From IMG/VR virus record IMGVR_UViG_3300018048_000058, positions 1 to 23,941 of that record: a stretch of 23,941 bases of DNA; one strand, 5' to 3'. Below are positions 1 through 10,713 of this stretch, one piece after another. Origin of the DNA: a virus. Below the pieces are notes generated by a model. The model was given only the letters and a program-made list of their open reading frames with translations, did not search any database and was not told the origin of the DNA. The position numbers and the translations under genes are program-made. The stretch's first letter is position 1. Each line of letters opens with the position of its first letter.

Positions 1-1009
1 CAATACCTACGTTATCATTTGTATTTTTAATAAGCCAATGTTCAAGCTCTCTAGTTACACTAGACTTTCCGAGTCCTGTTCCACCTGTAAGTGTGACCAG
101 TTCTCCCATACGCATACCATATAGTTTTTTATTCAATCCTTCCCAAGGATATGCAATACTTTCTTTTACTTCTCTATGTAGCCAATCATCTTTTTGTGAT
201 GATAGTTCCATGATTCCAGATGGGGTATATGTCTTAGCATTCCACCATGCTTGAGTAAACTCTTGAAACTTTTTCTGTTTCAACATGTCGTTAGCATCTT
301 TGAATCCATTAGGGAATGTCATGATTCTAGTTTTGTTAGGCTTTAGTATTTTAGCTACAGCTTTGGCTGCTTCTTTACCTGCCTTATCATTATCAAAACA
401 TAATACTACATTATCAAATGATTCAACAAACTCTATGCTTTCTCGTATATCTTTTACAGCAGATGAAGCACCTCGTTTTAAAGATACCACTGCCCACTTA
501 CCTTGAAAAAGTTCATGCACTGCCATAGCATCACACTCACCTTCAGTAATGGTTAGATACTTACCACCTGTATTACCATAGAGTTGTTCTCCAAATAAAC
601 CTGTGCCTTCAAAAGTTCCATTACATCCAAAGTTTTTATTAGCTACGTATCTTGTTTTAGTTCCTACAATCTCACTACCATTATGATATGGATATATATG
701 TTGTGTGACATTGTTATGAATGTCCTTTATAATCTTAACACCAAACTTTATAGCAGTCTTTTCAGATATATCTCTATCTGTTAAAGCACCATAAGAGCCT
801 ACATAGGATGTAAGAAATGTATTATCGGGTTTTGGTTTGCTTGTCATTTCAATTACCTTTCCTGTTGATTCATTGTCATAGTCTGTAAAGAATGTATTAC
901 AACTAAAACATTTAGCAGAACCATTCTCATTTAATGAGACAGCATCACTGCTTCCACATTTAGGACAGGGTAATTTGTGTTTAATAAATTGAGTTCTTTC
1001 TTGTTGCAT
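1..1009 (-). CDS. T7 gp4-like DNA primase-helicase (3' end outside window)
   Basis: Bifunctional primase-helicase that unwinds the fork and lays down primers. The 336 visible residues show a zinc-binding pair (C15-P-K-C18 and C34-F-S-C37), then a TOPRIM domain with its catalytic glutamate in EGE (156-158) and the acidic DND (206-208), then a linker and the start of a RecA-like helicase with Walker A GGTGLGKS (309-316). The order zinc ribbon, TOPRIM, helicase is that of T7 gp4. The start ATG is preceded by GGAGATAGA. The gene runs off the left edge, so the Walker B and arginine-finger regions are not visible. It is the most downstream gene of the leftward cluster seen here and follows the SSB gene, which fits a replication module. 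Confidence 0.93.
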   Translation of the reverse strand, partial: MQQERTQFIKHKLPCPKCGSSDAVSLNENGSAKCFSCNTFFTDYDNESTGKVIEMTSKPKPDNTFLTSYVGSYGALTDRDISEKTAIKFGVKIIKDIHNNVTQHIYPYHNGSEIVGTKTRYVANKNFGCNGTFEGTGLFGEQLYGNTGGKYLTITEGECDAMAVHELFQGKWAVVSLKRGASSAVKDIRESIEFVESFDNVVLCFDNDKAGKEAAKAVAKILKPNKTRIMTFPNGFKDANDMLKQKKFQEFTQAWWNAKTYTPSGIMELSSQKDDWLHREVKESIAYPWEGLNKKLYGMRMGELVTLTGGTGLGKSSVTRELEHWLIKNTNDNVGI

Positions 1010-5725: not shown

Positions 5726-5935
5726 CTATATATGCATTAAATCATCTACAAATTCTGACATAATCCTTTTTAGTTCGTCAAAATCTTTAGCGTCTCTAAT
5801 AGTTTTTCTATAGTCTTGAAGACATCTTTTATTTGTTTTACTGTCATAAGTTCTATATGCTAATGCTTCTTGTATTCTATATTTAATTGTAGATACAATC
5901 TTTTTTTCTAATTCATGTTCATTTAGTATGCTCAT
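5726..5935 (-). CDS. Hypothetical protein, 69 aa
   Basis: Not recognised. Predicted all-helical by composition (NEHELEKKIVSTIKYRIQEAL; then DFDELKRIMSEFVDDLMHI) with a basic middle. GGAGATAAT precedes the ATG. First gene after a 160-bp gap that holds an inverted repeat and a possible promoter, so it may open a transcription unit. Confidence 0.7.
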   Translation of the reverse strand: MSILNEHELEKKIVSTIKYRIQEALAYRTYDSKTNKRCLQDYRKTIRDAKDFDELKRIMSEFVDDLMHI

Positions 5936-8073: not shown

Positions 8074-8103
8074 ATTATAACCTTTTTGCTTGGTCGTTGT
8101 CAA
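8074..8103 (-). promoter_or_regulatory. Sigma-70 promoter, consensus hexamers
   Basis: On the minus strand TTGACA (8098-8103), 18 bp, then TATAAT (8074-8079): both hexamers are perfect. Its -35 box is the end of a 44-bp repeat that also ends in the -35 box of the promoter at 8412-8439. Transcription would start near 8066. Confidence 0.8.
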
Positions 8104-8141
8104 GCGTCTTAACAAATTTAAAGTATATACTTATATTTAAA
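8098..8141 (-). repeat. 44-bp repeat, copy 1 (promoter upstream element)
   Basis: Matches 8434-8477 at 43 of 44 positions in the same orientation. It contains the perfect 12-bp palindrome AAGTATATACTT (8121-8132) about 18 bp upstream of the -35 box. AT-rich, so it could be an operator, an UP element, or both. It overlaps the last codons of the 71-codon gene. Confidence 0.8.
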
Positions 8142-8352
8142 ATTGTTGAATCGTCCAAACTGTTCCCATTTCCATAGTGGTGTCATTCAAAAAGTCAAAG
8201 GTTGATTTAACAAACAGATGTTTCTTTTTATTAGACATATGTCTATATATTATTGACCTATCTTCTTTGAAACAATTTTGTCCCTTTACAACATAACCTA
8301 ACTCATTGATATATCGTTCTAATTTATCAAAGCTGTTAAATTTTTTTATCAT
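8137..8352 (-). CDS. Hypothetical protein, 71 aa
   Basis: Not recognised. MIKKFNSFDKLERYINELGYV, then a basic middle with IIYRHMSNKKKHLFVKS and an end TMEMGTVWTIQQF. Helix-then-strands in feel. An upstream TTG at 8364 is in frame, but the ATG at 8352 has GGAGATAATT before it and is preferred. It is driven by the promoter at 8412-8439, and its stop lies within the 44-bp repeat of the next promoter. Confidence 0.65.
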   Translation of the reverse strand: MIKKFNSFDKLERYINELGYVVKGQNCFKEDRSIIYRHMSNKKKHLFVKSTFDFLNDTTMEMGTVWTIQQF

Positions 8353-8380
8353 AATTATCTCCAATCGTTTTAAAAATTAA

Positions 8381-8411: not shown

Positions 8412-8439
8412 ATTTTAGCGAAGCCACCGAAAATGTCAA
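8412..8439 (-). promoter_or_regulatory. Sigma-70 promoter sharing its upstream repeat
   Basis: On the minus strand TTGACA (8434-8439), 16 bp, then TAAAAT (8412-8417). The sequence upstream of the -35 is the second copy of the 44-bp repeat. Start expected near 8404, giving a leader with the 8381-8398 hairpin. Confidence 0.7.
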
Positions 8440-8477
8440 GCGTCTTAACAAACTTAAAGTATATACTTATATTTAAA
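8434..8477 (-). repeat. 44-bp repeat, copy 2
   Basis: Second copy of the repeat at 8098-8141, with the palindrome AAGTATATACTT at 8457-8468. It borders the AT-rich stretch and DnaA-box array that follow. Confidence 0.8.
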
Positions 8478-8584
8478 GTTTGCTGATTTTTTAAGTATAA
8501 TTTTAAAGTTTAAATTTAAAGTTATCCACAGGTTATACATACTTATCTACAAAATATATACAAGTTATACATAAATTATCCACA
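8478..8584 (+). other. Candidate replication origin: phased DnaA-box array with AT-rich flank
   Basis: TTATCCACA at 8522 and 8576 are perfect matches to the DnaA box TTATNCACA. Between them lie TTATACATA (8533), TTATCTACA (8543), a degenerate ATATATACA (8554) and TTATACATA (8565). All are on the plus strand and the starts are spaced 11, 10, 11, 11 and 11 bp, so they face the same side of the helix. Bases 8478-8521 are almost pure A+T and could be the unwinding element. Known bacterial and plasmid origins (oriC, P1 and similar) use this design; the assignment here is inference. Confidence 0.65.
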
Positions 8585-8814
8585 GCTTTTGCCTTCAATT
8601 TAAAGCCCCCGCCTTTCTAATAACACCCTATTAAGCTTTAAAAACTGCCCTCAATCTTAAGCCCCCGACAACCTTTTTTAAGACTCGAGTTTAATCTTAA
8701 ACTTACTTAACTTACTTACTTCTTTGGTATGGTCGTATGCCATATAAAAAGCCATCTCATTTAAGTAAGCTGAGAAGATTTGAGAGTTCTTAAGTTATGA
8801 TAAATTCTAGGCAT
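8585..8814. other. Non-coding stretch between origin candidate and terminator
   Basis: No gene with a ribosome binding site. It holds two copies of a short GC island in AT-rich DNA (TTTAAAGCCCCCGCC around 8600 and CTTAAGCCCCCGAC around 8657), a small palindrome ACTCGAGT near 8684, and tandem CTTACTTA units around 8700-8720. These may be further protein-binding sites of an origin region. Confidence 0.35.
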
Positions 8815-8849
8815 AAAAAAACTCTCTCACTTGAAAGGCGAGAGAGTTT
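8815..8849 (-). terminator. Rho-independent terminator of the two-gene unit
   Basis: GAGAGAGTTT (8840-8849) pairs perfectly with AAACTCTCTC (8819-8828) around an 11-nt loop, and on the minus strand the stem runs into a T tract (A at 8815-8820 on the plus strand). It follows the stop of the 89-codon gene. Confidence 0.85.
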
Positions 8850-8857
8850 CGAAGAGT

Positions 8858-9127
8858 TTAGCTATTCTCTTTTAGATACAAAGCAATCTTATCAAGATAT
8901 ACTTTTGGAAGGCTTTTAGCTTGAAGAATCGTATGAGCTTTCTTAAAAGTAAGTCTTTCATCTTTAGCTAAACTATAAAGGCATCCAGTAATTTGCTTTT
9001 GAAGTTTCCAATTCATCTTGGTTCCTTTCTTAGCAAATTTATATCCTATTGCTTGACATTGTCTGAACGAAGCAGGTGCTGAAGTTCTGTCTTTATCAAA
9101 GCTATTTATATCAAATGTATTTTCCAT
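8858..9127 (-). CDS. Hypothetical protein, 89 aa (intact copy)
   Basis: Not recognised. Basic and helical, with RTSAPASFRQCQAIGYKFAK, TKMNWKLQKQITGCLYSLA and RLTFKKAHTILQAKSLPK. The segment order looks like several short helices, possibly a DNA-binding bundle. AAAGGAGTATAAT lies before the ATG. It ends just before a strong terminator. A broken copy lies mirror-image on the plus strand at 9643-9858, so this gene was duplicated by inversion or the mirror copy is an artefact. Confidence 0.8.
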   Translation of the reverse strand: MENTFDINSFDKDRTSAPASFRQCQAIGYKFAKKGTKMNWKLQKQITGCLYSLAKDERLTFKKAHTILQAKSLPKVYLDKIALYLKENS

Positions 9128-10266: not shown

Positions 10267-10713
10267 ATGGCTATATTACCGACTATAGATAATAAAAGTA
10301 GAAAAAGAGAACTAACTGAAAAGCAACAGTCTTTCCTCAATCATCTAGTAGATACTCATGGTGATGCTAAAAAGGCTGCTGAACTTGCAGGTTATACTTC
10401 TCATTACCATCACGTTGTAAAGACTTTAAAGTCTGAGATACTAGAACTCACTCAAGAGATATTAGCTAACTCAGCTCCTAAAGCTGCATTTAAGGTCGTA
10501 GAGATAATGGATTCTAAAAGACCTATAGTACAGGCTAATAACAAACTAGCTGCTGCACAGACTTTACTAGATAGAGTTGGAGTTTCTAAAGTAGATAAAG
10601 TAGATGTCAATCATAATGTAAATTCTGGTGGTATCTTTCTTATGCCTGATAAAGCCCCTTTAGACTTAGAAGAAACTGAAGATGGTGACTATGAGGTAGT
10701 TGATAATGACTAA
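10267..10713 (+). CDS. Terminase small subunit
   Basis: 148 residues. Recognises the packaging site and hands DNA to the large subunit. The N-terminal segment LTEKQQSFLNHLVDTHGDAKKAAELAGY (residues 16-43) is the helix-turn-helix region typical of small terminases, with 'K-A-A-x-x-A-G-Y'. A central helical region follows (oligomerisation), then an acidic C-terminus (LEETEDGDYEVVDND) that probably contacts the large subunit. No ribosome binding site precedes the ATG, and the promoter at 10232-10260 suggests a leaderless message. First gene of the rightward cluster, as in many phages. Confidence 0.8.
   Translation: MAILPTIDNKSRKRELTEKQQSFLNHLVDTHGDAKKAAELAGYTSHYHHVVKTLKSEILELTQEILANSAPKAAFKVVEIMDSKRPIVQANNKLAAAQTLLDRVGVSKVDKVDVNHNVNSGGIFLMPDKAPLDLEETEDGDYEVVDND

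Follow-up and report, generated by a model that had tools for sequence, protein, structure and literature searches.

The window, an entire IMG/VR virus contig of 23,941 bp, carries an array of six sites that is real, helically phased and DnaA-type by sequence, and the probability that it is the DnaA-recruiting module of a phage replication origin is about 50%. Lytic phages whose replisome is of the T7 type are assumed to initiate without a host initiator. A conserved phased array that is echoed in unrelated phages suggests that the use or capture of host DnaA may be common in such phages, a subject on which the open papers covered here say little; this particular array was not reported in any of the open PMC papers searched. 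Further, natural variants with, without and with an altered array make its role testable by comparison.

Structure and statistics of the array

The array and its individual sites, graded by their match to the DnaA-box consensus, are:

8522..8584, + strand: six DnaA-type 9-mers, head to tail, spacing 11/10/11/11/11 bp (from chain score and positional conservation)
8522..8530, + strand: consensus DnaA box TTATCCACA, 9/9
8533..8541, + strand: weak box TTATACATA, 7/9, 2 bp after the first box
8543..8551, + strand: box TTATCTACA, 8/9
8554..8562, + strand: very weak in-phase site ATATATACA, 6/9
8565..8573, + strand: weak box TTATACATA, 7/9
8576..8584, + strand: consensus DnaA box TTATCCACA, 9/9, 2 bp after a 7/9 box

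The initial annotation had described six 9-mers on one strand, two of them perfect, with starts at 8522, 8533, 8543, 8554, 8565 and 8576 and a helical phase of 10 to 11 bp; both the sites and the phase are confirmed, the latter also by the distances between strong boxes in relatives. The chain score, which covers same-strand boxes 10 to 11 bp apart, is 25 for the array, compared to 5 for the best chain elsewhere in the window when the array is masked. Scoring against shuffled sequence, a check put forward in the same annotation, came out clearly in the array's favor, with a maximum chain score of 11 across dinucleotide shuffles of the whole window (n = 500) and of 9 across regional shuffles (n = 5000). 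Boxes with one mismatch are in mild excess across the window (15 versus 7.85 expected, with as many in 3 of 100 shuffles), and the unusual feature is the clustering and phase of the boxes, rather than the number of single boxes. A chance cluster is rejected by the shuffles together with the conservation among relatives.

As in a DnaA-box cluster, close matches to TTATCCACA are grouped beyond chance, and the cooperative geometry of boxes that point in the same direction 2 to 3 bp apart is found here with gaps of 2, 1, 2, 2 and 2 bp. In particular, dimers of Thermotoga maritima DnaA form most readily when two boxes point the same way with a 2 bp gap (PMC10316083), and in vivo E. coli DnaA favors box pairs 2 or 3 bp apart, such as a 7/9 box with a 9/9 box (PMC11317965); the last two boxes of the array (7/9 then 9/9, with a 2 bp gap) have the double-box arrangement described in the latter work. 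Because the box geometry matches published DnaA biochemistry, the array is likely to bind host DnaA.

Gene layout and replication genes

By its terminase, the contig is closest to the pelagiphages HTVC115P, HTVC103P and HTVC104P (66–68%), followed by HMO-2011-type podoviruses (47–50%). Genes up to about 9.3 kb run leftward and encode a T7-type primase-helicase, a gp2.5-like ssDNA-binding protein and others, and genes from 10.27 kb onward run rightward and encode terminase, portal and capsid. The array sits in a non-coding gap between two conserved ORFs on the leftward side:

2..1009, − strand: T7-type primase-helicase (partial), replication module (phrog_239, E 2.4e-101)
8137..8364, − strand: conserved 75-aa ORF, no assigned function, left border of the array gap
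8858..9127, − strand: conserved 89-aa ORF, no assigned function, right border of the array gap
10267..10713, + strand: terminase small subunit, first rightward gene (weak but consistent PHROGs match)

The replisome genes of the sampled relatives include the T7-type primase-helicase and the gp2.5-like ssDNA-binding protein and, as we take it from our own reading of the sequences, an A-family polymerase. A phage-encoded DnaA is rejected, as the Bac_DnaA domain had zero matches in nine phage genomes, near-complete relatives among them, with 13 of 14 controls positive; any DnaA acting in these phages would therefore be the host's. In a T7-type origin, a phage single-subunit RNA polymerase melts the DNA at a phage promoter. 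The domain of this polymerase (PF00940) had no match in the nine genomes, which does not prove its absence, as the control set was equally silent; no gene for such a polymerase was recognized among the replication-module ORFs listed for two relatives.

SAR11 is the host group of the nearest cultured relatives. The DnaA of SAR11 retains the DHTTVIH motif, which is the box-reading motif of DnaA. Across 11 SAR11 genomes, there was one hit for a phased box pair, no phased TTATCCACA cluster and no five-unit 11-bp ACA array; TTATNCACA was not clearly above its reversed control in three genomes (G011, G012 and G018). Classical DnaA boxes may therefore be scarce at the SAR11 origin. A SAR11 oriC that served as the copied template is not favored by these 11 genomes, a comparison that is not decisive, as the contig's host may be another bacterium.

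DNA stability, skew and promoters around the array

The surroundings of the array contain the following elements:

8461..8560: least stable 100-bp duplex of the window by nearest-neighbor calculation, candidate unwinding region
8412..8439, − strand: leftward sigma-70-like promoter TTGACA-16-TAAAAT, 11/12, with its −35 at 8439
8074..8103, − strand: leftward sigma-70-like promoter TTGACA-18-TATAAT, 12/12
8434..8480: 47-bp element, copy near the array, 96% identical to 8098–8144 (repeat family D1)
8098..8144: 47-bp element, second copy (repeat family D1)
8818..8850, − strand: predicted intrinsic terminator, 13-bp stem, −17.8 kcal/mol by folding, with a T run
8590..8611: conserved repeat, first copy, GCCCTCAAN..GCCC type, just 3′ of the array (repeat family D4)
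8646..8667: CCCTCAA-type repeat, second copy

The least stable duplex overlaps the 5′ half of the array and places an unstable A+T-rich element beside the boxes, as in oriC-type origins. The 44 bp to the left of the array (8478–8521) are 84% A+T, and 17 stretches of the window are equally A+T-rich; their earlier description as nearly pure A+T was overstated. The expected change in GC skew near the array is present, with a cumulative minimum at 8722, 140 bp away, although this is weak evidence of an origin because it coincides with the switch in gene direction. A run of at least three DnaA-trios was absent 3′ of the array's last box, the only hit falling within the array, and no IHF site was identified.

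Both copies of the 47-bp element start at a leftward −35 hexamer and run upstream from there, making the element a candidate operator or upstream element; its presence at two leftward promoters suggests a regulator that is common to both. According to its predicted fold, the terminator at 8818–8850 would stop leftward transcription short of the array. The pair of CCCTCAA-type repeats is kept in most relatives, whether DnaA boxes are present or not, and the two copies within one relative are more alike than copies from different phages, as if co-evolving.

Conservation, loss and rewording in relatives

In total, 80 terminase relatives were compared, and among those with enough upstream sequence an array of DnaA boxes in this position is frequent. 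About a dozen relatives retain DnaA boxes at the array position, with conserved flanking ORFs (L006, L007/L008, L011, L013, L015, L016, L017, L022, L026, L053, L055 and L080, the last with its boxes on the opposite strand). Across 11 loci, neighboring strong boxes are 21, 22, 33, 43, 44, 54 or 64 bp apart, distances that lie near multiples of 10.5 to 11 bp (R 0.92–0.96, with a p-value that is only indicative because the phages are related). In three near-complete relatives of 51–55 kb (G001, G002 and G004), there are 2, 2 and 3 copies of TTATCCACA, respectively, every one of them inside the array or no more than about 200 bp from it and none farther than about 220 bp from the others, and a second consensus-box cluster away from the array was not found. 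In G002, the GC-skew minimum is about 250 bp from the array. The cultured phages HTVC115P and HTVC103P have zero exact copies of TTATCCACA across their whole records, and a search for cultured phage DNA homologous to the array region gave no convincing match.

The array is absent from other relatives (L029, L031, L036, L047, L025, L052/L054 and L023/L027), some of which share an 87–90% identical terminase, and is therefore not indispensable in the family; the flanking genes remain conserved in L029, L031, L036, L047 and L023/L027. The expectation that close relatives would carry the same phased array thus held for the nearest ones, and failed for some with a highly similar terminase and for another clade where the array is replaced. 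In that sister clade and in L056, 11-bp arrays without DnaA consensus boxes occupy the same place but repeat other words (L020, L034, L037, L038, L041, L044, L046, L050, L056, L060, L062, L069 and L083). The replacement words include GGTACAATTAA (L069, GGTACA), GTTACATAATT (L046, GTTACA) and TTCACATAAAG (L060), which have an ACA core in common, and TTCACA is also among the words. The lag-11 signal exceeded all 300 shuffles in 12 of the 13 other-word loci, a count that is descriptive because the loci were picked after being seen. L053 and L080 carry both kinds of word. At positions 5860–6000 of L069, a near-perfect 11-bp tandem repeat of GGTACAATTAA/GGTACAGTTAA lies in the position of the DnaA array and also has TTAA-N7-TTAA spacing; by eye, this CtrA-like spacing occurs in L055 and L069 and is absent from the window's array.

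On the terminase tree, the DnaA type appears in early branches (L053, L055 and L080) as well as in the clade that includes the window; the other-word type forms one large clade (with the array-less L052/L054 inside) plus L056, and the losses are scattered. The simplest story, tentatively, is an ancestral DnaA-type array that was altered in one clade and lost several times, where the order of changes is tentative because the tree is rooted at its midpoint. It is conceivable, though on balance doubtful, that a phased 11-bp array is kept as the origin's core while its word changes between DnaA boxes, an ACA-centered word or outright loss. If so, the initiator would have been exchanged inside one closely related phage group, and a switch between host-DnaA-dependent and DnaA-independent replication could be followed. 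The change of the repeated word at a fixed place inside one phage family is the part that deserves further work.

Proposed function and alternative explanations

The suggestion in the initial annotation that the phage borrows host DnaA to open its origin, or titrates it, is partly supported. As the DnaA-recruiting module of an origin, the array would work as follows. The consensus boxes at both ends would anchor host DnaA, and ATP-DnaA would then fill in the weaker in-phase boxes head to tail along one helix face, as these boxes share one direction and are 1 to 2 bp apart. The resulting complex would put strain on the very A+T-rich DNA beneath and beside the array until it opens, and the single strands would then be accessible to the primase-helicase of T7 type, the polymerase and the ssDNA-binding protein of the phage. 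Opening of the DNA and helicase entry at the array are plausible, judging from its position, the duplex instability and the replisome context. Counting against an origin are the 5′ location of the A+T-rich flank, the lack of 3′ trios, the arrays that were lost or reworded in relatives, and the absence of a phased TTATCCACA cluster from the SAR11 genomes searched.

The array starts about 80 bp upstream of a good leftward promoter, behind a terminator, an arrangement that would also suit a transcription switch in which DnaA bound upstream of the 8439/8412 promoter activates or represses the replication operon in response to the level of DnaA-ATP; DnaA is known to regulate nrdA, polA, dnaA and other genes (PMC11317965). 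However, the near-identical second promoter element at 8098 has no boxes, and the promoter-proximal sequence is kept in relatives that lack the array. Moreover, we know of no DnaA-regulated promoter that needs as much as a six-site phased array, and we regard such a switch as unlikely. Alternatively, the array could be a sink, where phage copies titrate DnaA, or hasten its loss of ATP as datA does, and block new rounds of host replication. The loci datA and box-bearing plasmids do titrate DnaA (PMC5835720), and a replicating phage would provide many copies, but six sites per genome would titrate little early in infection, a sink needs neither strict phasing nor a fixed origin-like placement, and the three near-complete relatives have no second consensus-box cluster; we regard a sink as improbable.

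It is also quite unlikely, if a little less so than a sink, that DnaA is not the main ligand. In that case, a phage-encoded protein or a different protein of the host would read a general 11-bp array whose repeat drifts, with the DnaA word as one of its versions. The lag-11 repeats beyond shuffles in nearly all of the other-word loci, in the same place and with ACA-core words, would fit such a protein, as would the two loci that hold both kinds of word. Even so, an unrelated protein would hardly pick the exact DnaA consensus together with weaker variants typical of DnaA sites. In addition, both sides of the tree have the DnaA word, with L053, L055 and L080 among the early branches that carry it, and a candidate phage initiator was not identified.

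Comparison with known systems

The closest cultured relatives by terminase are the HMO-2011-type and HTVC115P-like podoviruses (47–50% for the HMO-2011 type and 67% for HTVC115P). The window's array is not unique in kind, as unrelated phages, among them the T7-like coliphage P483, have phased DnaA arrays too. A scan for TTATCCACAGNTTATNCATA found 73 virus stretches, and in many of these, from families unrelated to the window's, the phased arrays are long; consensus-box pairs 2 bp apart were present in at least 120 stretches, compared to 27 for an out-of-phase gap of 7 bp. Escherichia phage P483 (KP090453.1) has about nine DnaA-type boxes in non-coding DNA at about 37.1–37.4 kb, mostly 11 to 12 bp apart, and this region has partial DNA matches in 61 phage records, some at a terminal repeat; positions 380–720 of L297 are listed with it. 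Like the window, P483 and related T7-like coliphages have a run of TTATCCACA-like boxes in non-coding DNA; in contrast, their arrays have no DNA homology to the window's, some of their box gaps are larger, and in several P483-like records the matching DNA adjoins the terminal repeat.

A marine phage family (L138/L156/L145) similarly has a phased array between its replication and packaging modules, together with a T7-type primase-helicase and a DNA polymerase, but it differs from the window in its higher G+C, boxes on both strands, another terminase PHROGs profile and sigma-54-like motifs next to its boxes. By visual comparison with the sigma-54 consensus, such motifs (TGGCACGGGTATTGCA and similar, sometimes several) adjoin the arrays of L138 (8680–9280, reverse strand), L145, L126, L087 and related loci. 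A Streptococcus phage match to the L138 region was rejected, as it has no boxes. With DnaA-box arrays in the T7-like P483 and in this second family, which has a T7-type replisome, the initial annotation's statement that phages with a T7-type primase-helicase normally start replication without DnaA is too strong. For Pseudomonas phage PseuGes_254, Ori-Finder predicts an origin where the replication-gene region ends, with DnaA boxes and repeats rich in A+T; unlike the window, it has no described phased array, and the prediction concerns one genome (PMC11512268).

Similar to datA/DARS-type loci, the array is a DnaA-box cluster outside a chromosomal origin, but it differs from them in its strict helical phase, single direction, low-stability DNA and origin-like position in a phage. 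It also differs from the basal unwinding module of the B. subtilis type, in which DnaA-trios lie 3′ of a box, by having A+T-rich DNA 5′ of its boxes and no 3′ trios; trios, which lie within about 16 bp 3′ of a box, are absent from about 15% of surveyed origins (PMC8287927) and are thus not strictly defining. Overall, the array resembles an E. coli-type oriC in its strong end boxes, the weak in-phase sites between them, the one orientation, the gaps of about 2 bp and the A+T-rich unstable DNA alongside, and departs from it in being a single direct array for which neither DnaA-trios nor an IHF site was identified, and in belonging to a phage that encodes a primase-helicase of its own. In the right half of E. 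coli oriC, the A+T-rich side likewise lies 5′ of the boxes.
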